From a virus: a stretch of 46,287 nt of DNA. The position numbers were made by a program, and so were the translations under genes. How positions within the stretch are numbered: position 1 is the stretch's first letter; each line of letters begins with the position of its first letter. The stretch is taken from positions 1-46,287 of the IMG/VR virus record IMGVR_UViG_3300043449_000651; one strand, given 5' to 3'. A model generated the notes under the pieces. The model did no database searches. It was given only the letters and a program-made list of their open reading frames with translations, and was not told where the DNA came from. This document shows positions 3,487-45,917 of this stretch, piece by piece.

Positions 3487-3861
3487 TTACTCCTTTTTTA
3501 AGAATGGTTTTAAGTCAGGTGGTGCCCAGCCTAGTGGTTTAAGAACCTTGCCATCTTCGCGCTTTCGTACTTTGCCAGTTTCCTTGTCGATCTTAGCAAA
3601 GTTTGTTTTCATAACTTCTTTCCAAGCACCATCACCATCAAATCCTGCAGAGTGGATAGCACCGATAGTAACAACTAGAATGTCAATTAGTGCATCTAGC
3701 GTTTCTACTTTGTCATGCGCCGCAATAGCATCTGCCAGCTCACCTGATTCTTCTTCAATCAGTTTCAAGTACATGTTAAATTGATCTGCGTTAAAGCCTT
3801 CGACGCTTTGATCGCAGGCTCTCATAAACTTTTCTTGATCGCGAAATGGATTAGTCATCAT
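3487..3861 (-). CDS. MazG/HisE-like nucleotide pyrophosphohydrolase
   Basis: A 124-residue all-alpha protein. It contains the metal-binding helix EEESGELADAI (around residues 36-46) and a downstream ALIDILVVTIGA helix (around 56-67), as in MazG-like and phosphoribosyl-ATP pyrophosphohydrolase-like proteins. The C-terminal KVLKPLGWAPPDL is a phrase seen in many phage members. Such enzymes hydrolyse nucleoside triphosphates or related nucleotides to monophosphates, either cleaning the dNTP pool or lowering alarmone levels; which substrate applies here is unknown. The ATG overlaps the gp55-like stop (ATGATGA) and there is a second ATG one codon on. It is the second gene of the leftward operon. 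Confidence 0.8.
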   Translation of the reverse strand: MMTNPFRDQEKFMRACDQSVEGFNADQFNMYLKLIEEESGELADAIAAHDKVETLDALIDILVVTIGAIHSAGFDGDGAWKEVMKTNFAKIDKETGKVRKREDGKVLKPLGWAPPDLKPFLKKE

Positions 3862-4865
3862 GCTTCCTCACTATCCTCTAAAATAATTTCAGTAACTTCG
3901 ATGTCTGCATCGATATCAATGTCTGTTTCTAAATCAACATTGGCAGGTAATTCTTCACCTGGTTCAACAGCAGCCACCGGATCTTTAAGTGCATTGTATC
4001 TTTCAATACCTTCAAGGTGCGCCTGCTGGCTTTCCATCTGGCGTGTCCAGCTTGGCATTTGGCCCGAGTCTTGTAGCATGTCATCACGGATATCACGTTG
4101 ACGCTTTTCTACGTTTAGAACACGGGTAAAGGAGTTAGTAACTGCGGCAGTATAATAAGCAAACGGGTTTTGTGATTTGCCTTCGTCAAACTGTAATGCA
4201 ATTTGTGTAAGCTGAATAAGTGCTTGCCCGCGCATTTCATCGACATAACTATAGCCACGCCAGTTGCTTCGCAAGCTGTAACGTTCGCATAGCTTTAAGA
4301 ACATTGCGCCTAAGCGATTTGTAATTTGTCCATGGGTCACACAAAACTCGCCTGTTTCTAAGTCGCCCTTCCAATGACTGCGAAGTACTTCGCGCCAAGT
4401 ACCATCTTCATTTTGAACAAAATGTTTGAATGGAGGAAAGTTTACTTTAGAGCGATGATCAGCAATACTCTTGGGATTATTTTTACGTCCAGGCTCGAGA
4501 GGAATATGCTCAAACGTCATCATGCGAACAACAAGATCAGTTACTGGAATCTTTTTAGGATTAACTTCAAATTGATCTTGTTTTGGTTTAGTACTTGCTT
4601 TGCCCTTTGCGGCTTCCCATTCTGCAATGGCGGCTTGGTATGCTTGTTGTTGTAACCTAGCCGCGCGAGCTTCACGTGCTAAGTTGATAGCACCTTCAGG
4701 ACAGGCTTTGGTTTTACGATTATGAAAGCTCTTTAATTCGGTTACAATATAATCATACTGTTCAAATTCTTTGCTTTCTTTCCAGCAATAGCTCATCTTA
4801 CTTGCATGGATGGCTGCTAGAATATCTTTATTCTTTAGGTAAATGGTTGTTGTTTTCTCTGACAC
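3858..4865 (-). CDS. 55: gp55-like late-transcription sigma factor with long N-terminal extension
   Basis: A 335-residue protein. Residues about 192-262 match the sigma region-2-like core of T4 gp55: ERYSLRSNWRGYSYVDEM, then FDEGKSQNPFAYYT and a basic NVEKRQRDIRDDML. This core pairs with host RNA polymerase and recognises the TAAATA-type late promoter. T4 gp55 is only 185 residues. Here about 190 extra residues precede the core, including an Ala/Lys-rich helix at 60-95. The C-terminus is very acidic (EVTEIILEDSEEA) and could hold the sliding-clamp-binding tail known in T4 gp55; that is inference. The start is GTG with AAGGAG seven bases upstream. The gene lies just downstream of a TTGACA-N18-TATACT promoter. 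Confidence 0.85.
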   Translation of the reverse strand: MSEKTTTIYLKNKDILAAIHASKMSYCWKESKEFEQYDYIVTELKSFHNRKTKACPEGAINLAREARAARLQQQAYQAAIAEWEAAKGKASTKPKQDQFEVNPKKIPVTDLVVRMMTFEHIPLEPGRKNNPKSIADHRSKVNFPPFKHFVQNEDGTWREVLRSHWKGDLETGEFCVTHGQITNRLGAMFLKLCERYSLRSNWRGYSYVDEMRGQALIQLTQIALQFDEGKSQNPFAYYTAAVTNSFTRVLNVEKRQRDIRDDMLQDSGQMPSWTRQMESQQAHLEGIERYNALKDPVAAVEPGEELPANVDLETDIDIDADIEVTEIILEDSEEA

Positions 4866-4940: not shown

Positions 4941-4954
4941 GGTAAATAGGTATG
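4941..4954 (+). promoter_or_regulatory. Late promoter (GTAAATA) for the rightward structural operon
   Basis: TAAATA at 4943-4948 matches the core of the T4 late promoter (TATAAATA). It faces the nucleotidyltransferase and baseplate genes. With the T4 spacing, transcription would start near 4954, which rules out the ATG at 4952 as start codon and favours the one at 4967. Confidence 0.65.
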
Positions 4955-4966
4955 GAGAAACTTTTA

Positions 4967-5614
4967 ATGAAGATCAATGAGCTAAATTCCCGCATTGTTG
5001 CCGTATACGCAGGACGCTTCCACCCGTTCCACCATGGACACGCTGAAGTGTTTCGTGAACTCGCGAACAAGTTTGGCATTAACAATACTTACATCACATC
5101 AAGTGGCAAGGTAGAGCCAGAAAAGAGCCCGTTTACGTTTGCAGAAAAGGCACTTATGATGCAGGCAGCAGGCGTACCAAAAAAGAATATTGTAGAAGAA
5201 ACAGTGCCATACGCACCAGTAAACTTGCCAAGCAAGTTGGGACTCGATCCAAACAAAGACGTTATGGTTTTTGGCGTGGGCCAAAAAGACATGGCCGAAG
5301 ATCCACGTTTTGCGTTCAAGCCATTAAAAGACGGCTCTCCAAGTTACTTCCAACCATACACTGGCAAGAATTTACAGCCATTCAGCAATGCTAAAAATGC
5401 TAATGGTACACGTGCCGGCCATGCTTACATTTACCCTGTGCGTGACGTACAGTTTAGCATAGCCGGACAAACAATCAACAGTGCAAGCCAAATTAGAAAC
5501 TTGTACAAAGCCGCAGATGACGAAGGCCGTGTAGCAATTTTACACGAGCTATATCCAAATGGTGGCGCACAAATTGATAAGATTAAACGCATCTTTGATG
5601 CCAAGTTAGGATAA
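4967..5614 (+). CDS. Cytidylyltransferase-like nucleotidyltransferase
   Basis: A 215-residue protein with GRFHPFHHGH at residues 16-25. This is the HxGH-type ATP-binding motif of the nucleotidylyltransferase superfamily (NMN adenylyltransferase, RfaE, glycerol-3-phosphate cytidylyltransferase). The late ISSAS-like motif is seen as NSASQIRNLY near residue 175. Such enzymes join an NMP to a phosphorylated substrate and release pyrophosphate; the substrate here cannot be told. The ATG at 4967 is chosen because GGAG lies eight bases upstream, and the ATG at 4952 sits at or before the predicted late transcription start. It stands first in the late baseplate operon, four bases before the next gene. 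That position suggests a job late in infection, or a virion-linked one, rather than early NAD synthesis. Confidence 0.8.
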   Translation: MKINELNSRIVAVYAGRFHPFHHGHAEVFRELANKFGINNTYITSSGKVEPEKSPFTFAEKALMMQAAGVPKKNIVEETVPYAPVNLPSKLGLDPNKDVMVFGVGQKDMAEDPRFAFKPLKDGSPSYFQPYTGKNLQPFSNAKNANGTRAGHAYIYPVRDVQFSIAGQTINSASQIRNLYKAADDEGRVAILHELYPNGGAQIDKIKRIFDAKLG

Positions 5615-8623: not shown

Positions 8624-10780
8624 ATGCAAGCAAATAACAAAGGTATTAGCACAGGTGGTGTTGGCGCAGTTGGCAATAAAATGCAAGGCGTCTTCATTGG
8701 CAAAGTAAAAGACAACATTGATCCAGATGGCCTTGGCCGCCTACGAGTGTGGATTCCCCAGCTAAGTTCAGCAGCCGAATCAAATAAACAAAGTTGGTTT
8801 ACTGTACGCTACTGCCCGCCATTTGCTGGAGCAACAAATACCAAAGATGAGTCGCAGGCTAAAGACGCAACCAAATATGCACAGACAAATCAAAGCTATG
8901 GTATGTGGATGGTGCCCCCAGATAAAAACGTACAGGTTATTTGTAGCTTTATCAACGGAGAATTAAATCAAGGTATTTGGTGGGCATGCCTGCCGCATGA
9001 CGGCCATACACATGCGATACCAGCAGTTGCGTCAGGTACAACACATGATGGCGAAACAACGCCATTGGCTGAACGTAATCGTTTTAATACAGCTGATCCA
9101 GACGTAGAACGCAGACCTAAGCATCCTCTTAATAACGTTATTAGACGACAAGGTCTTGAAAAAGACAAACGTCGTGGACACATCAATGCTGGTCCATTTA
9201 GAAATAAAGAAAAACACACAGGACTAGGTTACGGTATTTTAACACCTGGTCAGCATCAGTTTGTAATGGACGATGGTGAGGAATTTAAAAACGGTCAAAT
9301 TAGATTGCGTACTGCATCAGGTAATACGTTTATCATGGACAACGACGAAGGCTTCATTTACTTTATCAACGCAACAGGCAATGCCTGGATGCAACTTGAC
9401 AAAGAAGGCAACGTTGATGTGTATGCTGGCGGCTCGTTTAGTGTCAATGCTGTTGACAGTATCAACCTTCGCGCTGGCAATAACATCAACATGGATGCAG
9501 GCGCAAACTTAAATGCAGTTGCGGCAAAGAATTGGAATCTGGAAGCATGTGAAGTGTTTAATGCTACTGGTACAACTGGCATGAAGTTAAGCACAAGCCA
9601 GAACATGAACATTCTTGCTGACAGCCAGTTTAAAATGACTGGTCAGCGCATCGACTTAAATGGTCCTCCTGCAGAACGTGCAACATTGCCTACGCCAAAC
9701 AGTTTAGTAACAAACTCGTCAGTTGGTAAAAGTGTTGCAGGCCGTGTTCCTGAAGCTGAACCTTATGGCGGCCACGTTAGTAAAGGCGGTGAGCAGCCTA
9801 CAGTAGTTCCAGGTACCGCTCCAATTGATGATCCTGTGATTACGCCAGCCCCAGAAAGCTACGAAGACAAACCAGCACCAGAGGATACTGATGCTATTGC
9901 TTGTGTGCCAGAAGTAACACAAAGCAAATTAAGCGACGAAGGATTTAAGATCCTAAAAAGTCGCGAAGCATACTGTGGTATCATGTACAGTGACTATCAA
10001 GGTTATAGCATTGGCTATGGTATCCGCCTAGACATTTTTGGTCCCGGTGGAGGCGGCAAGATTGACGAAAATCTAAAGCGAGCATTACTAGCTGGGCCAA
10101 GTGAGCCCGAAGCACGACTAGCAAGCCGTCAAATTATTGATCGCGAAAATACTCCGCGAGTTATGCGAGCACTTGAAAAGGCAAAAAGCGGAGCAGGCAA
10201 GCCAATTTGTATTACACAGGCACAAATTGATGCATTAATTATGGCATCTTATAGTAGCCCAGCAAGTGCTGATAGAATGGCACAAGAATTGGTACAAGCA
10301 GCCGCATCCACAGCAGATGGCAAGCCTACTAACGAAGCTATTGCTAAAATTTGGGCTAATTCTCCGTATAACAACAGTAGCAAAGTTCGCAACAGTGATG
10401 CAAAATATGCAATGACTGGGAAGCCAAACTCTGATACACGAGTAATGGAGCCAGAGCAATTGCAAGCAGAAGGTATCAAGCGAGATTTGTCACGTTTAAA
10501 GAACAACAAAGTTCAACTTCCCGACACAGCAGGCTGGCGTACCCCTTATGGCAATGGCGGGCAAACTGGAACTAAAGTTGAAAATACTTACGGAAAACCA
10601 ACTTCACAACACTTGGCTCAATGGGAAAGAAGTTACTATCTAAACACTGGAAATGTGCCATATGGTAGCAACTTAACTGTTGAACAACTCCGTGACAAGT
10701 ATGGTTCTCCACATACAGGAGGCAATAATCCTCCAGGTACTCCAACAGCCGGCACCGCAACCTCCAGTAATGTGGGTTAA
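8624..10780 (+). CDS. 5: Baseplate central spike with C-terminal lysozyme (gp5-like)
   Basis: A 718-residue protein. Residues about 20-160 form the gp5/VgrG OB-fold region (GKVKDNIDPDGLGRLRVWIP). Residues about 215-345 are short strands of the spike beta-helix. A Pro-rich linker (about 385-430) leads to a GH24/T4-lysozyme-like domain at about 434-600. E448 and D457 have the same nine-residue spacing as T4 lysozyme E11 and D20, and GYSIGYG aligns with the T4 Thr26 loop, with Ser in place of Thr. The protein punctures the outer membrane and digests peptidoglycan during injection. In T4 the lysozyme lies between OB-fold and helix; here it is at the C-terminus. AAGGA stands eight bases before the ATG. 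Confidence 0.85.
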   Translation: MQANNKGISTGGVGAVGNKMQGVFIGKVKDNIDPDGLGRLRVWIPQLSSAAESNKQSWFTVRYCPPFAGATNTKDESQAKDATKYAQTNQSYGMWMVPPDKNVQVICSFINGELNQGIWWACLPHDGHTHAIPAVASGTTHDGETTPLAERNRFNTADPDVERRPKHPLNNVIRRQGLEKDKRRGHINAGPFRNKEKHTGLGYGILTPGQHQFVMDDGEEFKNGQIRLRTASGNTFIMDNDEGFIYFINATGNAWMQLDKEGNVDVYAGGSFSVNAVDSINLRAGNNINMDAGANLNAVAAKNWNLEACEVFNATGTTGMKLSTSQNMNILADSQFKMTGQRIDLNGPPAERATLPTPNSLVTNSSVGKSVAGRVPEAEPYGGHVSKGGEQPTVVPGTAPIDDPVITPAPESYEDKPAPEDTDAIACVPEVTQSKLSDEGFKILKSREAYCGIMYSDYQGYSIGYGIRLDIFGPGGGGKIDENLKRALLAGPSEPEARLASRQIIDRENTPRVMRALEKAKSGAGKPICITQAQIDALIMASYSSPASADRMAQELVQAAASTADGKPTNEAIAKIWANSPYNNSSKVRNSDAKYAMTGKPNSDTRVMEPEQLQAEGIKRDLSRLKNNKVQLPDTAGWRTPYGNGGQTGTKVENTYGKPTSQHLAQWERSYYLNTGNVPYGSNLTVEQLRDKYGSPHTGGNNPPGTPTAGTATSSNVG

Positions 10781-10805
10781 AATAAAACCCAGCTTAATAA
10801 AACTT

Positions 10806-10821
10806 GGTAAATAGGTGTATG
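10806..10821 (+). promoter_or_regulatory. Late promoter fused to the gp25 start (TAAATA-N5-ATG)
   Basis: TAAATA at 10808-10813 is followed by exactly five bases and the ATG of gp25. With T4 late spacing the first transcribed base is the A of that ATG. Confidence 0.6.
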
Positions 10822-11199
10822 CCAAGTTACACATCAAAATTTCGCGGGTATAGCTCAATTGGAACTAGCTTTTTAAGTCCAGTCCTGTACGACCTTGCCC
10901 TTGCAAAACAAGACTTACTAAACCACTTTAATACTCGCAAAGGCGAGCGTATTATGATGCCAGAATTTGGCAGCATTGTATGGGATATGCTTTTTGAGCC
11001 ATTAGATGATTACACCATCAATTTAATTGATGCTGATGTGCGTTCGATCATTAAAGCAGATCCACGTTGGTTGTTGCAAAGTGTAGCTATCAGCGAAGGC
11101 CCTAATGCACTTAACATTGAAGTTACAGTGACATATTTGCCCACAGACGAAACAGTAGTACTACCATTGGTATACGATAAAGGAACGAACACATTATGA
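10819..11199 (+). CDS. 25: Baseplate wedge protein gp25
   Basis: A 126-residue protein of the gp25/lysozyme-like wedge family. It has FRGYSSIG near the N-terminus, KQDLLNHFNTRKGERIM in the first half, then PEFGSIVWDMLFEPLD, an arrangement found in almost all gp25 and type VI TssE proteins. It nucleates sheath assembly on the baseplate. The ATG at 10819 is preferred over a TTG at 10804, because the TTG would lie inside the late promoter. The stop overlaps the gp6 ATG (ATGA). It has no clear Shine-Dalgarno and may be translated from a leaderless mRNA. Confidence 0.92.
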   Translation: MPSYTSKFRGYSSIGTSFLSPVLYDLALAKQDLLNHFNTRKGERIMMPEFGSIVWDMLFEPLDDYTINLIDADVRSIIKADPRWLLQSVAISEGPNALNIEVTVTYLPTDETVVLPLVYDKGTNTL

Positions 11200-23039: not shown

Positions 23040-23059
23040 AGTGGGTTATAAAATAACTA

Positions 23060-23075
23060 ACTAAATATCATTATG
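23060..23075 (+). promoter_or_regulatory. Late promoter fused to the next start (TAAATA-N5-ATG)
   Basis: TAAATA at 23062-23067 is followed by five bases and the ATG at 23073, with no Shine-Dalgarno in the 33-base gap. It restarts transcription after the giant gene. Confidence 0.6.
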
Positions 23076-23699
23076 AACATAACATCTTTACCAGTTAAAA
23101 TTACAACTCACATTGTGATTACAGATGCTGATACCGGGGAAGTATTGCGAGAAGGCGAAAACGCCATTCACCAGGAAAACATGAGTCAAGTGTTGGCAAC
23201 AGCACTTGCCCGCGGAACAAACAGCTTTATCAGTGAAATGCACTTTGGTAAAGGTGCTAGTGTAACTGCAATTGACGGTTCTATTTCATATAGAACTCCA
23301 AACGTTTTTGGATCAAATTCAGAACTGTACAATCCAACGTACTTTACAGTAGTTGATGCACAGGATCTAAACAATCCAGACTCTGCTAATAACAACCTAA
23401 CAGTAACACATACTACAGGAACAACTTACAGCAGTACAGTAGTAACAGCAACACTGGACTACAATGATCCTGTTGCAAGTGACAGCGTTTTTAACATTGT
23501 TAACAGCACCGAAGATAGCCTAAATGCAACTACAAGCGTAGATGGCGAAATGGTATTTGACGAGATTGCACTAAAAACAAAAGGGACAGCAGGTTTAAAT
23601 TCTGGTAATTTGCTTACACACTTTATCTTCCACCCGGTTGAGAAGAGTCACAATCAGCGTATACAGATTGTATACACGCTAAAAGTTCAAGCTGGTTAA
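23073..23699 (+). CDS. Tail/baseplate virion structural protein
   Basis: A 208-residue, Thr/Asn/Ser-rich, beta-predicted protein. Residues around 55-80 read FGKGASVTAIDGSISYRTPN, and the end reads LLTHFIFHPVEKSHNQRIQIVYT. Both are phrases met in tail-associated proteins of large myoviruses, where FHPVEK-like motifs lie at the C-terminus. It sits between the giant protein and a fibre-like protein and has its own late promoter. I cannot assign a T4 number; a peripheral baseplate or fibre-attachment role is likely from context. Confidence 0.65.
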   Translation: MNITSLPVKITTHIVITDADTGEVLREGENAIHQENMSQVLATALARGTNSFISEMHFGKGASVTAIDGSISYRTPNVFGSNSELYNPTYFTVVDAQDLNNPDSANNNLTVTHTTGTTYSSTVVTATLDYNDPVASDSVFNIVNSTEDSLNATTSVDGEMVFDEIALKTKGTAGLNSGNLLTHFIFHPVEKSHNQRIQIVYTLKVQAG

Positions 23700-23710
23700 T
23701 CCAAATTTAA

Positions 23711-23724
23711 ACTAAATATACAAA
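23711..23724 (+). promoter_or_regulatory. Late promoter (CTAAATA) with conventional leader
   Basis: TAAATA at 23713-23718 predicts a start near 23724 and a leader of about 28 bases. The leader holds AAAGGA before the ATG at 23752, so this late gene has a normal RBS. Confidence 0.6.
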
Positions 23725-23751
23725 GGCATTAAGCCAAAAGGACGAGAAGAA

Positions 23752-25911: not shown

Positions 25912-25925
25912 GGTAAATAACAACG
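25912..25925 (+). promoter_or_regulatory. Late promoter (GTAAATA) before the accessory operon
   Basis: TAAATA at 25914-25919 predicts a start near 25925, 23 bases before the ATG at 25948, with GGAA as a weak RBS. It lies at the head of the long coupled gene series ending near 36409. Confidence 0.6.
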
Positions 25926-25947
25926 TACATAATAATTCTGGAACCAA

Positions 25948-31645: not shown

Positions 31646-32804
31646 AAATGCAGAATTAAGATCAGCGTTATTGTACTTCACTGACGAAGCAATTGGATAC
31701 CGTCACAGTATTCATTTCCTGCATCGCTGGATTGAAACAGGCGAGCAAGCTGAGTTAGAGGGCTTGATCCTCGAAGTTGGTCGTGAAAACTTTGTCGATT
31801 TACAACCATTGCTTGACACAGTAAAGGATTCTGCTAATACAAACGGAATAGTAGCTTTACAAAATTTTATTAAAATCAATGGGATTTACAATTATGACAA
31901 TCCAGAAATAAAAATTGCACCTCCGCCTGATCTCGACAATAGTGTTGCACAATATGTTGAAGGCAACGCTTGGGTAATGCACGCCTGGGTTGAAGCGAAT
32001 ACACATAGAAATGTAACGCCGTATTATTCAATTGCTAAAGCATACGGGATTTTTCAAGAGGCTCGCGAAAACTTTATTAAGATTTTTGATCTATTAGAAC
32101 TTATGTTTGGTAAAAACGTTACATTGTTTTCAGCAGTACGAGATAACGATATAGTGTTGCTAGGCAACTTGTTGAGTAATTATTACCCTGGTTGCAGTAA
32201 GCATATCAATAGGCTTGCACAATCTGTTGCTGAGCACCCAGACTTAAATTGGAAAGACGCATTAAGCAGAAACCAAATTAAAAGTAAGATGTGGTTAATC
32301 GAACAATTGGATACACTTAAAGTATTGCCAAAGCCGCGCAAGTATGCAACTGACGAATCTTCTAATGTATTATTAGTAGGCGGTTGGGTTGGTATGTTAA
32401 GTTTCTTAGCCGATATGAAAGGCAAGTTTCTAGATGTAGTAACCAATATTGATATTGACGAGTCTGTGCATGGTGCATCATCTGATTTAAATTCCATTAC
32501 TAATTCGACATTTAGAACTAGCAACAGAGATGTAAGAAAATTAAACATTGCAAAGTATAACAAGCCATTGGTAATTGACACTATTGTTGAACACTTTACA
32601 GATCACGGGGAATGGGTTAAAACTCTGCCCAAGAAGGCTATGATTGTACTGCAAGGTAACGATATGTTTGATGTACCTGATCATGTGAATTGCCACAAAA
32701 CATTAGAAGAGTTTATTGCGTCATGTGGGTTAAATAACATTATCTGGTCTGGAGAATTGAATCTCTATAAATGTACCAGATATATGGCCATTGGTACTAC
32801 ATGA
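31626..32804 (+). CDS. Methyltransferase-like protein with unknown N-terminal domain
   Basis: A 392-residue protein. Residues about 247-392 resemble a class I SAM-dependent methyltransferase: NVLLVGGWVGML at 247-258 in the place of the glycine-rich motif I, NIDID at 274-278 as the acidic end of strand 2, NRDVRKL at 300-306 and IDTIVEHF at 317-324. The first 240 residues are helical with no recognised family. A target cannot be named; the neighbours suggest a sugar or small-molecule acceptor. It starts inside the preceding gene and its stop overlaps the following ATG (ATGA). Motif I is atypical (GGWVG rather than GxGxG), so the call is moderate. Confidence 0.55.
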   Translation: MDGSVDKNAELRSALLYFTDEAIGYRHSIHFLHRWIETGEQAELEGLILEVGRENFVDLQPLLDTVKDSANTNGIVALQNFIKINGIYNYDNPEIKIAPPPDLDNSVAQYVEGNAWVMHAWVEANTHRNVTPYYSIAKAYGIFQEARENFIKIFDLLELMFGKNVTLFSAVRDNDIVLLGNLLSNYYPGCSKHINRLAQSVAEHPDLNWKDALSRNQIKSKMWLIEQLDTLKVLPKPRKYATDESSNVLLVGGWVGMLSFLADMKGKFLDVVTNIDIDESVHGASSDLNSITNSTFRTSNRDVRKLNIAKYNKPLVIDTIVEHFTDHGEWVKTLPKKAMIVLQGNDMFDVPDHVNCHKTLEEFIASCGLNNIIWSGELNLYKCTRYMAIGTT

Positions 32805-38800: not shown

Positions 38801-39349
38801 TTAAGAAATTGACGGGATGTTCTCCAATAGGATGTCTTTAGTAAAGCGAATGCTTAACATCAATCTTGGACTATTGCTTTTATTTTCGATATGGTGCGGA
38901 ATGTTAATCTTAACAAACGTTGGTTTGTTGATAATTTTGGTAGCCGCTAGCGTTGGCTCATCTTGCCAATTAATCTTGAGATACTTGATAGTTTTAAATG
39001 GACTTTTAGTTAGTACAAAGTCGCCATCATACCAGTACATTGGCCCATTCTCGCAGTTTAGGATAGGAAGATTTAAGGCAGTATTAGATGCATTGATACG
39101 CTCGGGGTCAAATCCATCAACGTGTAAATCCTGCACAAAGTTAGGTTCATTGATAAACATGATGGCTGTTTTGATCTTAACTTCAATGCCAAGTACAGTC
39201 AGAATATCGTGCTCAACTAGCTTGCCAATGTATGCTAAATCAACTCCAGAGAATACAGTAGCAGTAGTAAATGCTCCATCCCACTTGCTACGGCAAAACT
39301 TTTGGACTAGCGGCCAACTTGGTAAATCTATTTCTTTAAAGTATTCCAT
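38801..39349 (-). CDS. 2-oxoglutarate/Fe(II) oxygenase-like protein
   Basis: A 182-residue protein. DLHVDGF around 74-80 gives the HxD pair (H76, D78). The end has INIPHHIENKSNSPRLMLSI, with H152/H153 as distal ligand and R162 or R168 for 2-oxoglutarate. This is the double-stranded beta-helix layout of Fe(II) oxygenases. The start at 39349 is preferred over an ATG at 39388, because a late-type TAAATA with five bases of spacing ends right at it and the longer form would include that promoter. It is transcribed away from the fatty-acid hydroxylase-type gene. Substrate unknown. Confidence 0.65.
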   Translation of the reverse strand: MEYFKEIDLPSWPLVQKFCRSKWDGAFTTATVFSGVDLAYIGKLVEHDILTVLGIEVKIKTAIMFINEPNFVQDLHVDGFDPERINASNTALNLPILNCENGPMYWYDGDFVLTKSPFKTIKYLKINWQDEPTLAATKIINKPTFVKINIPHHIENKSNSPRLMLSIRFTKDILLENIPSIS

Positions 39350-39360
39350 ACTAATATTTA
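39349..39360 (-). promoter_or_regulatory. Late promoter fused to the oxygenase start (TAAATA-N5-ATG)
   Basis: Leftward TAAATA at 39355-39360, preceded by AA, is followed by five bases and the ATG at 39349, with no Shine-Dalgarno. Confidence 0.6.
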
Positions 39361-39387: not shown

Positions 39388-39401
39388 TAAGTACTACTAT
39401 G
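39388..39401 (+). promoter_or_regulatory. Late-type promoter variant fused to a start (TAAGTA-N5-ATG)
   Basis: TAAGTA at 39388-39393 followed by five bases and the ATG at 39399. It is the same geometry as the TAAATA sites with one A-to-G change, in divergent orientation to the promoter at 39355-39360. Confidence 0.5.
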
Positions 39402-39857
39402 GAACATATACTTGTATTTTTAACTTGGACTCTATATCTTTACGTTATACACCGCATTATTCACGGTGTTGGCTTAAAGTTCTTCCCGGTAGCGTTTAAA
39501 GCGCATGCAGATCATCACAAGTATATCAATACACACGAGCAAACAAAGTGGCACTGGAATAACTTATTCTTATTCAACGATACTTGGATGAGCACACTTG
39601 ACTTGTGGATCACTGAAGTTATTCCAACTCTGGTGTTTAGTTGGATTACAGGTTACTGGTGGGTAAGCGTATTTTACTATCTATGGGCCGCACTAATTCA
39701 AGAAACAATTGAACACAATCCAAAGTTCAACTTTTATCCGTATCTCACAAGTGGAAAGTGGCACTTGATTCATCATCGTGCCACTAACTTCAATTACGGA
39801 TTGTTTTTCCCAATTTGGGATATTTTATTTAAAACTCACAAGCCACTGGCTAATTGA
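39399..39857 (+). CDS. Fatty-acid hydroxylase/sterol desaturase-family membrane protein
   Basis: A 152-residue protein with the histidine motifs of the FA_hydroxylase superfamily in order: HRIIH at about 18-22, HADHHK at about 36-41 and HLIHHR at about 127-132. A hydrophobic helix lies at 3-17 and another between 75 and 105. This di-iron family hydroxylates or desaturates lipids and carotenoids. It is short but complete in its histidines. The ATG at 39399 is chosen because a longer frame from 38817 would run antisense through the whole oxygenase gene. It overlaps the convergent ATP-grasp-like gene by 22 bases. Confidence 0.8.
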   Translation: MEHILVFLTWTLYLYVIHRIIHGVGLKFFPVAFKAHADHHKYINTHEQTKWHWNNLFLFNDTWMSTLDLWITEVIPTLVFSWITGYWWVSVFYYLWAALIQETIEHNPKFNFYPYLTSGKWHLIHHRATNFNYGLFFPIWDILFKTHKPLAN

Positions 39858-41514: not shown

Positions 41515-41739
41515 TTACTCAGCAGCCGCGTCTGCGGTAACTTCTGCGCCTTCACCTTCAGCAGGTGCTGGCTCGTTTGCTTTTAGAAACTGTGCTAACT
41601 TGTTGTAAGTTGCGCCAATGATTTCCATTTCGCCTGCGCGGTATCCGCCACGCTGGCTTGCTAACTCAATTGCACCAGCAAGAATCTTCATGTCTTGTAG
41701 TGTTAAGCCGATTGGCTGTGCTTGTTCTTGTTGTTCCAT
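41515..41739 (-). CDS. Small conserved-type phage protein
   Basis: A 74-residue protein with a helical core (LTLQDMKILAGAIELASQRG, then a Glu-rich turn and YNKLAQFLKA) and an acidic Ala/Glu tail. Similar short proteins occur in T4-like cyanophages, function unknown. AGGAG precedes the ATG. A late-like TATAAGTA lies at 41780-41787 with a predicted leader of about 35 bases, so it may be a late gene. Confidence 0.6.
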   Translation of the reverse strand: MEQQEQAQPIGLTLQDMKILAGAIELASQRGGYRAGEMEIIGATYNKLAQFLKANEPAPAEGEGAEVTADAAAE

Positions 41740-41779
41740 TAATATCTCCTAGGTTAAAAAGATGGAAGTCTTCCGCAAA

Positions 41780-41787
41780 TACTTATA
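41780..41787 (-). promoter_or_regulatory. Possible late promoter (TATAAGTA)
   Basis: Leftward TATAAGTA, one base from the T4 late consensus TATAAATA, 41 bases before the ATG of the 74-residue gene and just past the terminator of the VWA gene. Confidence 0.45.
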
Positions 41788-41860: not shown

Positions 41861-43063
41861 TTAGTGTTTAGGCGGCACGTAGTTAGCAGTAATGCCAAAC
41901 GGTGCTGTAATAGTATTGCTACCATGCACAACAAACAACGTATCGCAATAGTCTGGGTCGCCCCAGCTACCAAACGGATATCCGTCTGTGAATACTACAA
42001 GTTGATGCGGTTGAACATCGTTATGCTTCATCCATTGCCAGATGCAAGTAAAGTCAGTGCCACCACCACCTTGGATGTTGTATTCACCCATGCTTCGACC
42101 GTCATCACCTGTAAAGGTATCTTCGTTATAAACATCAGTGTCGAATGTAATTACTCGCACCTTGTAACTTGTGAACTGATCCAAGCTGCCTTGTACCATA
42201 CCCAAAAAGTCTGCCAGCATACGTTCGCAAATAGAACCAGAAGCGTCCAGTGCAACAACAATGTCCAGTTCCTCACCTGGCAATTGTCCAGGCATAACTG
42301 CACCAGTATGCCACGCCTTACGGTTAGGGCGCATCCAAGTGTAGTCGCTCTTGACAGAGCCGGAGAACTGAATACGCAACAAGTCTTTCAAGTCCATTAC
42401 TGGAGCAGTAATGTCTTTAACAAGACGCTCAATGTCACCAGGAGTGTTACCTGCACCTGCACTCTTTGCGGCTTGAATAACAGCTTCACGCCATTCGTCA
42501 CGCAAGGCTTTCTTTTCTTCTTCGCTCAGCTTCTTGAACTTGGGCTTGCCTTTGCCGTTGCCTTCTTGATCGCCATCGCCATCACCGGAGCCGTCACCAT
42601 CACCATCCATTTCCAAGTGATCATCAAACGGCATCTTGATAACTGTGGCATTGGCCATCAAGTCATCATATACTTCGTCGGCAGTCTTGCCTTCGTACTT
42701 GCGGTCTGCCAAGATGTCGACTACGGTGATGCGAGTACCAACGTTCTCGCGGATCAACATGTTATTGATAACAAAGTCGCCGGCCATGTTCCACACACCC
42801 GGCTCACGACTACCACGGCGTGTCATGTGATCAAAGATAATATGTCCAAGTTCGTGAGCAAAGCCAAACACCAACTCACCATCAGAACACTTTTGAACAA
42901 AGTCTTTATTGTAGTAGAACTTGCGACCGTCAGTTGCAATAGTCTTGCACCATTCAACTTCTTCCAGTTTCAGACGTGCCGCCAAAGGACCCCAAAAGGG
43001 ATACTTGAGCAACATACTAACACGGCTCTTAATTAAGCGATCTTTTGCGGGCATTTTAGACAT
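41861..43063 (-). CDS. Metallopeptidase-like/VWA domain protein (DUF2201 type)
   Basis: A 400-residue protein. HELGHIIFDH at 70-79 is a zincin-like HExGH motif, in the N-terminal domain of the DUF2201 family. Residues 152-175 are a Gly/Asp repeat linker. The VWA domain starts near 265 with the MIDAS motif DASGS at 273-277 and has GGGGTDF further on. Proteins of this type pair with MoxR AAA+ ATPases, as chaperone-like partners that bind a target and pull it apart. The MoxR gene stands two genes upstream. The gene has its own TTGACG-N17-TATAAT promoter and AGGAG. Target unknown. Confidence 0.85.
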   Translation of the reverse strand: MSKMPAKDRLIKSRVSMLLKYPFWGPLAARLKLEEVEWCKTIATDGRKFYYNKDFVQKCSDGELVFGFAHELGHIIFDHMTRRGSREPGVWNMAGDFVINNMLIRENVGTRITVVDILADRKYEGKTADEVYDDLMANATVIKMPFDDHLEMDGDGDGSGDGDGDQEGNGKGKPKFKKLSEEEKKALRDEWREAVIQAAKSAGAGNTPGDIERLVKDITAPVMDLKDLLRIQFSGSVKSDYTWMRPNRKAWHTGAVMPGQLPGEELDIVVALDASGSICERMLADFLGMVQGSLDQFTSYKVRVITFDTDVYNEDTFTGDDGRSMGEYNIQGGGGTDFTCIWQWMKHNDVQPHQLVVFTDGYPFGSWGDPDYCDTLFVVHGSNTITAPFGITANYVPPKH

Positions 43064-43130: not shown

Positions 43131-43434
43131 TTTCTGTTGTTTTTTTGCTACACATTAAGTCCCACAGCATAGCAACTTCGGGCTCTCTAAACCAGATTTT
43201 TTGCTTGGGAACAAAGTCCCAATCCAATCGTTTCAAACCTTGTTGCCTGCACCATGCGGTAACTTCATTAATTGTTGTGGCTCGATCAAGAGTGCGGACG
43301 GACCAACCTTGTCGTTGTTTGCGGAGCCACTCGCTAACATCGCCCGGTGAAGGGGGCTGGTCCGTCCAGACTGTCGTATAGTCCGGACCGTATAGCATTT
43401 CTGCTATTTGAACAGTCCGGGGTCTATCACTCAT
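43102..43434 (-). CDS. Unknown small protein between MoxR and VWA genes
   Basis: A 110-residue protein rich in Trp and Arg. It has VSEWLRKQRQGWSVRTL and a C-terminal WFREPEVAMLWDLM segment with a charged tail. No family recognised. Its start overlaps the MoxR stop by eight bases and its end contains the promoter of the VWA gene. Linked with the cassette by position, it could be an adaptor for the ATPase/VWA pair; this is inference. Confidence 0.6.
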   Translation of the reverse strand: MSDRPRTVQIAEMLYGPDYTTVWTDQPPSPGDVSEWLRKQRQGWSVRTLDRATTINEVTAWCRQQGLKRLDWDFVPKQKIWFREPEVAMLWDLMCSKKTTEKPVDEEPKS

Positions 43435-44524
43435 CTGTAAGCAGATTAGCGTAACGCTTGAAGAACTCTGGGAAGTTGGTCATCTTCTTGCGATCGAAAA
43501 CCACCTTGTAAGACTTCAACACTGTATGGGCACCCATGATAACCATTTCTGGTTCAAAGTTCGCCATCATAAAGCCAAGCCAGTTGTCGGCGTTCTTGTT
43601 GAACTCGTCCAACTTACCTTCACGCTTACCTGCTTCGTAACGAGTACGAAGTTCATAGCTCAAGCTAGTAACCAGAGCGTATGCGGCAGACACTTCCTTG
43701 CTCTTGAAGGTGGTAACTTTGCCACTCAACACATCTGATGGATCAGGCAAGTCTGCGGCGTGCTTACGGTGTGCCATAAACTTAATCGCCATACCTTCAC
43801 CAACCAAGCCCGACACCATGTCTGTGTTAGCAGAGTCCGGCATGTCGTCGTCGATCATATCGCTAACAAAGCTCCAGGTACGTGGAGTAGAGAAAGCACG
43901 ATCGTGTTGCGTAGGATCAAAGTTGTACAAGTCGCCTTTGAACTGCTTCAAGAAGCCCACCACGTGCGGATGGATCTCGTTCATGATAGCCCATTGTTCC
44001 CAGTCTTCAAAGTCCACACGGATTTCCAAGTGCATGAAGCGGTTAGCCAGTGGGCTAGGCATACGGTACGTAACACCTTTATCGCCCATTCGGTTACCTG
44101 CGGCAATCATAACCACGTTATCGGGCAAGGTGTACTGGCCCACTTTGCGGTTTAGAATCAGCTGGTAAGCCGCGGCCTGAACAGCAGGAGGAGCAGAGTT
44201 CAGTTCGTCCAAGAACAGGAACACCACATCGTGTTGTGCGGCAAACTCTGCGGTAGGCAGTTCGGAAGGAGTAGCCCACTTCATAGTGTTGTCGCCGGCA
44301 CTGTAATAAGGAACACCCTTAATGTCAGTAGGATCCATCAAAGCCATACGCAAGTCTACGACTGCGGAGTTGGGCCACTCTGCGGCAACTTGGTTCACCA
44401 TATCAGACTTACCTACGCCGGGAGGACCCCAAACGAATACTGGACGGCGTTTCTGTACGGCACGGCGCAAAATTGGCTTGCACTCGCTGATCTTAACTGT
44501 GCGGGTTTCTACTTGATTTCCCAT
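43427..44524 (-). CDS. MoxR-family AAA+ ATPase
   Basis: A 365-residue protein with Walker A GPPGVGKS at 33-40, Walker B LFLDELN at 103-109 and a sensor-1 Asn in AAGNRMGDKG at about 141-150. It belongs to the MoxR/CobS-like AAA+ class, which works with VWA proteins in metal insertion, complex activation or remodelling. The partner VWA/metallopeptidase gene lies just downstream. AGGAGCCACC precedes the ATG, the same leader phrase as in the VWA gene. A consensus early promoter stands 39 bases before it. Confidence 0.85.
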   Translation of the reverse strand: MGNQVETRTVKISECKPILRRAVQKRRPVFVWGPPGVGKSDMVNQVAAEWPNSAVVDLRMALMDPTDIKGVPYYSAGDNTMKWATPSELPTAEFAAQHDVVFLFLDELNSAPPAVQAAAYQLILNRKVGQYTLPDNVVMIAAGNRMGDKGVTYRMPSPLANRFMHLEIRVDFEDWEQWAIMNEIHPHVVGFLKQFKGDLYNFDPTQHDRAFSTPRTWSFVSDMIDDDMPDSANTDMVSGLVGEGMAIKFMAHRKHAADLPDPSDVLSGKVTTFKSKEVSAAYALVTSLSYELRTRYEAGKREGKLDEFNKNADNWLGFMMANFEPEMVIMGAHTVLKSYKVVFDRKKMTNFPEFFKRYANLLTDE

Positions 44525-45225: not shown

Positions 45226-45609
45226 TTAACCTTTTCCCTGTGCTCGCCTGCTTAATCCGTCGAGCCACAGCACAATATCATCGTTCACTAAACGGATTTC
45301 CATTGCATCCTGTTCACCAAAGATACGAAAGTAGCCGGCACCATGATAGTAAGGCCAATCTAAGTGTTGCTCAAGTCCAATCAAGTGTCCAGGTTTTGGG
45401 CTCCATCCTGGTGGGCATTGGTATGACCAATAGCGGAAGTGGGGCTTCATTAATTCCCAACCGAATGTAGTTAAGCGTAGACCTTTTTGCTTACCAGGTT
45501 GGTAGTTTTTAAAAACAGTGTACTCTGTTATCTTGGTGTTTTCCCAAATGTGCGGAATCGGGTACTGAGCCAAGTACTCAGTTATTTTTGTAGGAAGATC
45601 CTTGCTCAT
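45226..45609 (-). CDS. Unknown small protein
   Basis: A 127-residue protein rich in Trp, Tyr and Gly. A notable stretch is FRYWSYQCPPGWSPKPGHLIG, followed by YYHGAGYFRIFGE, and the end is basic. It looks like a compact soluble protein; no family recognised. Its ATG lies 32 bases inside the upstream gene, with a weak AGGGA before it. It was probably co-transcribed with that gene from the late promoter at 45895. Confidence 0.55.
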   Translation of the reverse strand: MSKDLPTKITEYLAQYPIPHIWENTKITEYTVFKNYQPGKQKGLRLTTFGWELMKPHFRYWSYQCPPGWSPKPGHLIGLEQHLDWPYYHGAGYFRIFGEQDAMEIRLVNDDIVLWLDGLSRRAQGKG

Positions 45610-45889
45610 TGATTTTGCGTCCCTGCTTTAATTCAACAACAGAGAAGTCATTGACCTTGAATAGCTTGTTTAACTTGTCGGCCAAGTTAAACGCATGTCC
45701 GGGATTGGAAAAGGATACCTTTTTATATTTTGGGCCTGGATAGCTGATTAAGCTATTCAGTGTGCGGAGATTAATTGGTTTGTCTTTGTAAAAAACAGCG
45801 TATATTGCATCAGCCGCAAGTACTTCTTCGCTCTTATAAGTTCTTGGGTTTGTATACGTTAATAGGATGTTGGGCTTTGGTCTACTCAT
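45578..45889 (-). CDS. Unknown small protein
   Basis: A 103-residue basic protein (MSRPKPNILLTYTNPRTYKS at the start, then LADKLNKLFKVNDFSVVELK). The ATG at 45889 is preferred over a TTG at 45904 inside the promoter. A late-type TAAATA lies exactly five bases before the ATG with no Shine-Dalgarno. No recognised family. It overlaps the next gene by 32 bases. Confidence 0.55.
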   Translation of the reverse strand: MSRPKPNILLTYTNPRTYKSEEVLAADAIYAVFYKDKPINLRTLNSLISYPGPKYKKVSFSNPGHAFNLADKLNKLFKVNDFSVVELKQGRKINEQGSSYKNN

Positions 45890-45917
45890 ACTTTTATTTA
45901 TCAAAAGTAGGTATTTA
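45889..45917 (-). promoter_or_regulatory. Late promoter fused to a start (TAAATA-N5-ATG), with a second TAAATA
   Basis: Leftward TAAATA at 45895-45900 followed by five bases and ATG; another TAAATA at 45912-45917 just upstream. Confidence 0.55.

Follow-up and report, generated by a model that had tools for sequence, protein, structure and literature searches.

What does a late promoter do when it stands directly against a start codon? This question is raised by the gene for a gp25-like baseplate wedge subunit in the virus record IMGVR_UViG_3300043449_000651, the whole of which (46,287 nucleotides) was analysed and is called the window here. At this gene, TAAATA is followed by exactly five bases and ATG (the N5 spacing). 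The initial annotation had listed four TAAATA-N5-ATG sites and one TAAGTA-N5-ATG site and interpreted them as promoters of leaderless late transcripts. All five positions held, and the interpretation is supported with amendments, the transcription starts being inferred and not taken from RNA. We consider it likely (probability about 0.85), by inference from sequence alone, that N5 sites reflect leaderless transcription of a sizeable share of the genes of this giant T4-like phage and of several distant relatives, including those for portal, terminase, baseplate gp25 and tail proteins.

TAAATA occurs 12 times in the window, against 46.2 occurrences expected for the whole 46-kb record, and it is depleted in most relatives too, as would be expected if it functions as a promoter; the relative G032 is an exception. 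Gene starts in the window carry TAAATA-N5-ATG four times, against 0.80 expected, a number reached in none of 100 shuffles, and all four sites open ORFs of 103-208 amino acids. An ORF start lies no more than 40 bases downstream for 9 of the 12 TAAATA sites, although the site at 32731, counted among these nine, is likely to be coding sequence. The gene-associated sites that are not N5 stand 18-34 bases before the start, and several of the genes concerned have a Shine-Dalgarno (SD) sequence. As can be seen in Table 1, the window thus contains both layouts. The start of gp25 is firm, because no other start is available ahead of the conserved FRGY region, an in-frame TTG at 10804 not being kept in relatives. 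One label did not hold: the gene at 38801-39349, which had been called an oxygenase, gave no family match in PHROGs, Pfam or PDB sequence searches, and it is the divergent neighbor at 39399 that matches a fatty-acid hydroxylase.

Table 1. Late-box sites and associated genes of the window; promoter function, leaders and leaderless starts are predictions.
Feature	Position	Strand	Basis
gp55-like late sigma factor, own gene with AAGGAG leader	3858..4865	-	phrog_12791, E 2.1e-88
TAAATA late promoter and predicted 13-nt leader (4954-4966) with GGAG	4943..4966	+	sequence
Cytidylyltransferase-like protein, leadered in window	4967..5614	+	PF01467; phrog_395
TAAATA-N5-ATG of gp25, N5 = GGTGT, predicted +1 = A at 10819	10808..10821	+	sequence
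gp25-like baseplate wedge subunit, predicted leaderless	10819..11199	+	phrog_43, E 3.6e-18
TAAATA-N5-ATG of tail-region gene 23073-23699	23062..23075	+	sequence
phrog_11259 protein, function unknown, predicted leaderless	23073..23699	+	E 2e-51
TAAATA late promoter and leader with AGGA, gene 23752, leadered class	23713..23751	+	sequence
TAAATA late promoter and 28-base spacing, gene 25948, leadered class	25914..25947	+	sequence
182-aa protein, predicted leaderless	38801..39349	-	ORF list, orthologs
TAAATA-N5-ATG of gene 38801-39349	39347..39360	-	sequence
TAAGTA-N5-ATG of gene 39399-39857	39388..39401	+	sequence
Fatty-acid hydroxylase-like protein, predicted leaderless	39399..39857	+	PF04116, E 1.7e-12
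TAAGTA and leader with AGGAG, gene 41515-41739, leadered class	41740..41785	-	sequence
103-aa protein, predicted leaderless	45578..45889	-	ORF list, orthologs
TAAATA-N5-ATG of small gene 45578-45889	45887..45900	-	sequence
Second TAAATA near small gene 45578-45889	45912..45917	-	sequence

Several observations were made around these loci. The genes 39399-39857(+) and 38801-39349(-) are divergent, both are predicted to be leaderless, and TAA[A/G]TA-N5 recurs in orthologs of both. A conserved block, GATAAAACCCNG...TTGG, lies upstream of the gp25 promoter (window 10776-10807, and orthologs), and another, GTGGGTTAT, is conserved upstream of the 23073 promoter (window 23040-23061, and orthologs); either might be a terminator or a regulator site. 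In a minus-strand region, a DUF2201 metallopeptidase/VWA protein adjoins a MoxR-type AAA ATPase (window 41861-43063(-) and 43427-44524(-)).

The initial annotation had proposed comparing the frequency of the N5 spacing in relatives with chance. This was done, on metagenomic contigs whose ORFs were called mechanically, and N5 proved to be strongly enriched in several lineages. Compared with permuted hexamers, TAAATA-N5-ATG was counted 20 times against 1.6 in G016, 20 against 3.0 in G015, 10 against 0.64 in G013, 12 against 1.9 in G025, 5 against 0.5 in G012 and 13 against 0.07 in G032, and a reversed-pattern control run as a whole-record search agreed with the peak. The pattern, its statistics, its conservation and its distribution among lineages are therefore shown. 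The genomes are partly A/T-rich, so that chance or base composition could be held responsible; this is all but excluded, since permuted hexamers, reversed patterns and shuffles give no such peak and the peak is strongest relative to expectation in G032, a genome of 58% GC. G032 (L271-L280) is also the genome in which TAAATA is commoner than expected (58 against 22.6) and in which the N5 signal is cleanest.

Besides radical-SAM proteins, the N5 genes of these phages encode virion proteins, among them gp25, the terminase large subunit, portal, head closure, tail tube, head-tail adaptor and baseplate hub/lysozyme; late-virion genes with an upstream TAA[A/G]TA likewise include gp25, portal, terminase, tail genes and others. 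Counts of box-to-ATG spacing revealed no N5 peak in T4, Syn9 or RaK2, where leaders are found and the spacing peaks near N28 (T4) or at about N20-29 (RaK2 and Syn9) instead, whereas N5 is the dominant short spacing in the window phage and its N5+ relatives. PA5oct has no clear peak at any spacing, N5 included, and none of five environmental relatives (G017, G018, G019, G023, G024) has an N5 peak. With these results the layout is ruled out as a general T4-like feature, and the original proposal is narrowed accordingly to particular lineages.

The box itself is specific. Among single-substitution variants, only TAAATA (101 genes; off-register mean 3.2) and TAAGTA (26; 2.4) showed a clear N5 peak, and TAAATA peaks at N5 only before ATG, other start codons remaining at background (GTG 3, TTG 1, CTG 3). 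A rival reading is that TAAATA at -11 to -6, the usual SD position, is a ribosome-binding or A/U-rich translation signal and not a promoter. We regard this as very unlikely, because this hexamer is already known as the T4-type late box, the same genomes carry it further upstream of genes with an SD, TAAATT, TAAAAA and other A/T-rich variants have no N5-specific peak, and sigma70 promoters in these phages show a parallel N6 layout (see below). The SD sequences themselves are less informative. Longer-leader genes had been said to possess them, and GGAG (4967), AGGA (23752) and AGGAG (41739) bear this out. N5 starts had been said to lack a convincing one, and SD sequences are indeed few at N5 and commoner at N17-45, but the comparison is biased: the box, fixed at -11 to -6, fills the SD slot, so the absence of an SD at N5 sites is not independent evidence.

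Where would transcription begin if N5 sites are late promoters? The gp55-like sigma factor of the window is the presumed reader of TAAATA, an inference from its sequence. In T4 numbering the 8-bp late box begins at -13 (PMC2988020), and N5 would therefore put +1 on the A of ATG, a position carried over from T4 and inferred without RNA 5' ends. At leadered late promoters of these phages, the predicted +1 is the position with the strongest A (51%); positions -13/-12 (TA in T4, the leading TA of TATAAATA) are not conserved in their late boxes. At position -1, 98 of the 101 N5 genes (97%) have C or T, an initiator signature; the share is only 44% for background starts (p = 3e-29) and 55% downstream of permuted hexamers. 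Bacterial polymerases prefer to start on a purine that follows a pyrimidine, and given this preference the pyrimidine at -1 indicates that the start is held on the A.

Pooled over five long genomes, the box-to-ATG spacing is bimodal, with 20 sites at N4, 75 at N5, 37 at N6-8, 25 at N9-16 and 113 at N17-32. The scarce spacings N9-16 would give leaders of 4-11 nt, which are probably too short for an SD to work. A shoulder at N4 is seen in G025 and G032 and one at N7-8 in G015 and G016, and it is possible that the start position varies in some lineages. The N7-8 class in G015 and G016 (L105-L117, L085-L101) often has a purine at the T4 +1 position, from which leaders of 2-3 nt are inferred for these sites. 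Both shoulders, and these purines, favor the alternative that the promoters are real and that the polymerase starts one to several bases off, producing very short leaders and no truly leaderless mRNA. We judge this unlikely: the main peak falls at a single spacing, the 97% pyrimidine at -1 fits a start fixed on the A, and the sigma70 class peaks at N6, its canonical +1 register. A start on the A of the ATG thus remains the preferred reading for the main class.

Host-type promoters of the form TTGACA-N17-TATAAT-N6-ATG occur in the same phages as the N5 late boxes. TAnnnT-N6-ATG with a -35 element at a spacer of 16-18 was found 7 times in G016, 7 times in G025 and 8 times in G015, against 0.0-0.6 off-spacing, and G025 has five further sigma70-type promoters at N5. 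The same N6 layout was found 0-1 times each in PA5oct, RaK2, T4 and Syn9, and the window, which holds mostly structural genes, has no clear example. Late-sigma boxes peak at N5 and sigma70 boxes at N6, each in its own canonical +1 register. Since both promoter classes are in the +1-on-ATG register, the layout would be a property of phage gene expression as a whole; tying it to the late sigma, as the initial annotation did, was too narrow, because the same phages also have predicted leaderless sigma70-type promoters. The late sigma genes of G015 and G022 themselves have a TTGAC-type -35, a TATA(A/T)T-type -10 and an ATG 5-6 bases later, and are predicted to be leaderless from a host-type promoter.

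The spacing is kept in orthologs. Every distinct window-clade gp25 upstream that was read carries TAAATA-N5-ATG, while the five bases themselves vary (GGTGT, GGTGC, GGTTT, GGCTT, GAGTT). Orthologs of the 23073 gene in the window clade have N5 in 10 of 11 cases and N6 in one, all six orthologs examined of gene 39399-39857 have TAA[A/G]TA-N5, and those of the small gene 45578-45889 have N5 in three of five, N8 in one and a leader in one. These data bear on the possibility that a leaderless start exists and that read-through from upstream late genes nevertheless makes most of the protein, leaving the layout with little functional weight. The late regions are operon-like, with upstream genes close by on the same strand, which speaks for it. 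It seems unlikely to us, however, because a read-through message has little room for an SD at N5 starts, where the box fills the slot, and because exact spacing kept in orthologs suggests selection.

Promoter and start codon had been described as locked together, which held only in part, as one and the same gene may have an N5 start in some lineages and an SD-bearing leader in others. The cytidylyltransferase gene beside the sigma gene has TAAATAGGAGTATGAAG (N5) in L212 and L213, and N5 also in L257, L284 and others; these sister lineages have the N5 form without an SD, whereas the window's own subclade has TAAATAGGTATGGAGAAACTTTTAATGAAG (N18 with GGAG, predicted 13-nt leader). For terminase, G015 and G016 have N5, whereas G012 and G025 have a leader with GGAGG; portal has TAAATA-N5 in G015 and TAAGTA-N5 in G013, G025, G027 and G028; the neck gene has N5 in G016, N8 in G015 and a leader in G012, G013 and G025. 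On a tree of the late sigma, at least four changes between N5+ and N5- are needed, and well-supported branches force two of these; G016 (N5+) is sister to four N5- phages (support 99/97) and is nested in a larger, mostly N5- group. Long branches leave the deeper placements unsure. The scatter, inferred from the sigma tree only, fits repeated gain or loss, as would be expected if host translation habits drive the layout, the hosts of these phages being unidentified.

How does this arrangement compare with known systems? T4 late promoters, which depend on gp55/gp33/gp45, share the box family (TATAAATA in T4, NATAAATA in S-PM2; PMC2988020, PMC2984593), a gp55-like sigma encoded nearby and a box upstream of virion genes, and differ in the spacing described above. 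Leaderless genes of Actinobacteria and Deinococcus-Thermus resemble the N5 genes in having a -10 element fixed beside the start codon, about 5-7 bases upstream, and no leader (PMC3160421, PMC12340547), but there the cell's housekeeping sigma is used, whereas here late-sigma N5 and sigma70 N6 promoters are found in jumbo phages. In phiKZ, also a giant phage, late transcription starts inside a TATG motif (PMC7598289); that phage, however, uses its own multisubunit RNA polymerase, +1 is the G of TATG, and there is no -10 box at a fixed spacing. Lambda cI is the classic leaderless phage mRNA (PMC9031893, where leaderless translation is reviewed; lambda also in PMC3160421), but it is a single gene without a late-gene layout or a late sigma. 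Two criteria of leaderless genes, a -10 element at a fixed short distance (N5 late, N6 sigma70) and a strong preference for ATG, are seen here. No leaderless transcripts from T4-type late promoters were found in the searchable literature, so that the initial statement that no such pattern was known in T4-like phages held within it; most subscription papers, including any on cyanophage start mapping, were outside coverage.

The hosts could not be identified. Searching bacterial genomes with gp6 and with gp25 yielded nothing informative, no tRNAs were found in the window, and WhiB, a marker of actinobacterial hosts, was absent from every genome tested. Judged by sigma and gp25, which are 35-45% identical, the nearest cultured relatives include the jumbo T4-like phages PA5oct, Phosso, 121Q, RaK2 and GAP32; for each N5+ lineage, even the closest phages in culture are distant. 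A phage-encoded translation factor as explanation is unsupported: IF3 was found in RaK2, 121Q, Atu_ph07 and G015 and not in the N5+ genomes G025, G016 and G032, bS21 is scattered (G015, PA5oct, Atu_ph07), and neither was found in the N5+ genomes tested other than G015.

In our model, TAA[A/G]TA-N5-ATG is a T4-type late promoter, and its reader would be RNA polymerase with the gp55-like sigma of the phage. The first transcribed base would be the A of the ATG, and the resulting leaderless mRNA would be translated by recognition of its 5'-terminal AUG, without an SD. Other late genes of the same phage would have an SD within a leader of at least about 12 nt, intermediate lengths being rare, and host-type sigma70 promoters would occupy the corresponding register, TATAAT-N6-ATG. 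There being no RNA 5' ends or protein N-termini, the start of transcription, the leaderless mode of translation and the part played by the host are inferred and not shown. The layout would probably be an adaptation to hosts with ribosomes that are efficient at translating leaderless mRNA, a step that we infer and consider likely, with the hosts unidentified. A bolder reading is that, in entire lineages of T4-like jumbo phages, a large share of both the early and the late genes, those for portal, terminase and baseplate included, is expressed leaderless, that the layout is gained and lost as phages move between hosts that differ in their translation habits, and that promoter-to-ATG spacing reports how the host initiates translation; taken as a joint claim, we lean slightly against it.

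In the textbook system of T4, late messages carry a leader and an SD; here, a T4-type promoter apparently adjoins the ATG of many virion genes in several distantly related lineages known only from metagenomes. For gene calling, finders that demand an SD may misplace N5 starts. The spacing is a marker readable without experiment, and might help to identify the hosts of uncultured giant phages. Alternation of the same gene between layouts provides a natural series in which to study the conditions that favor leaderless expression and the reasons for it.
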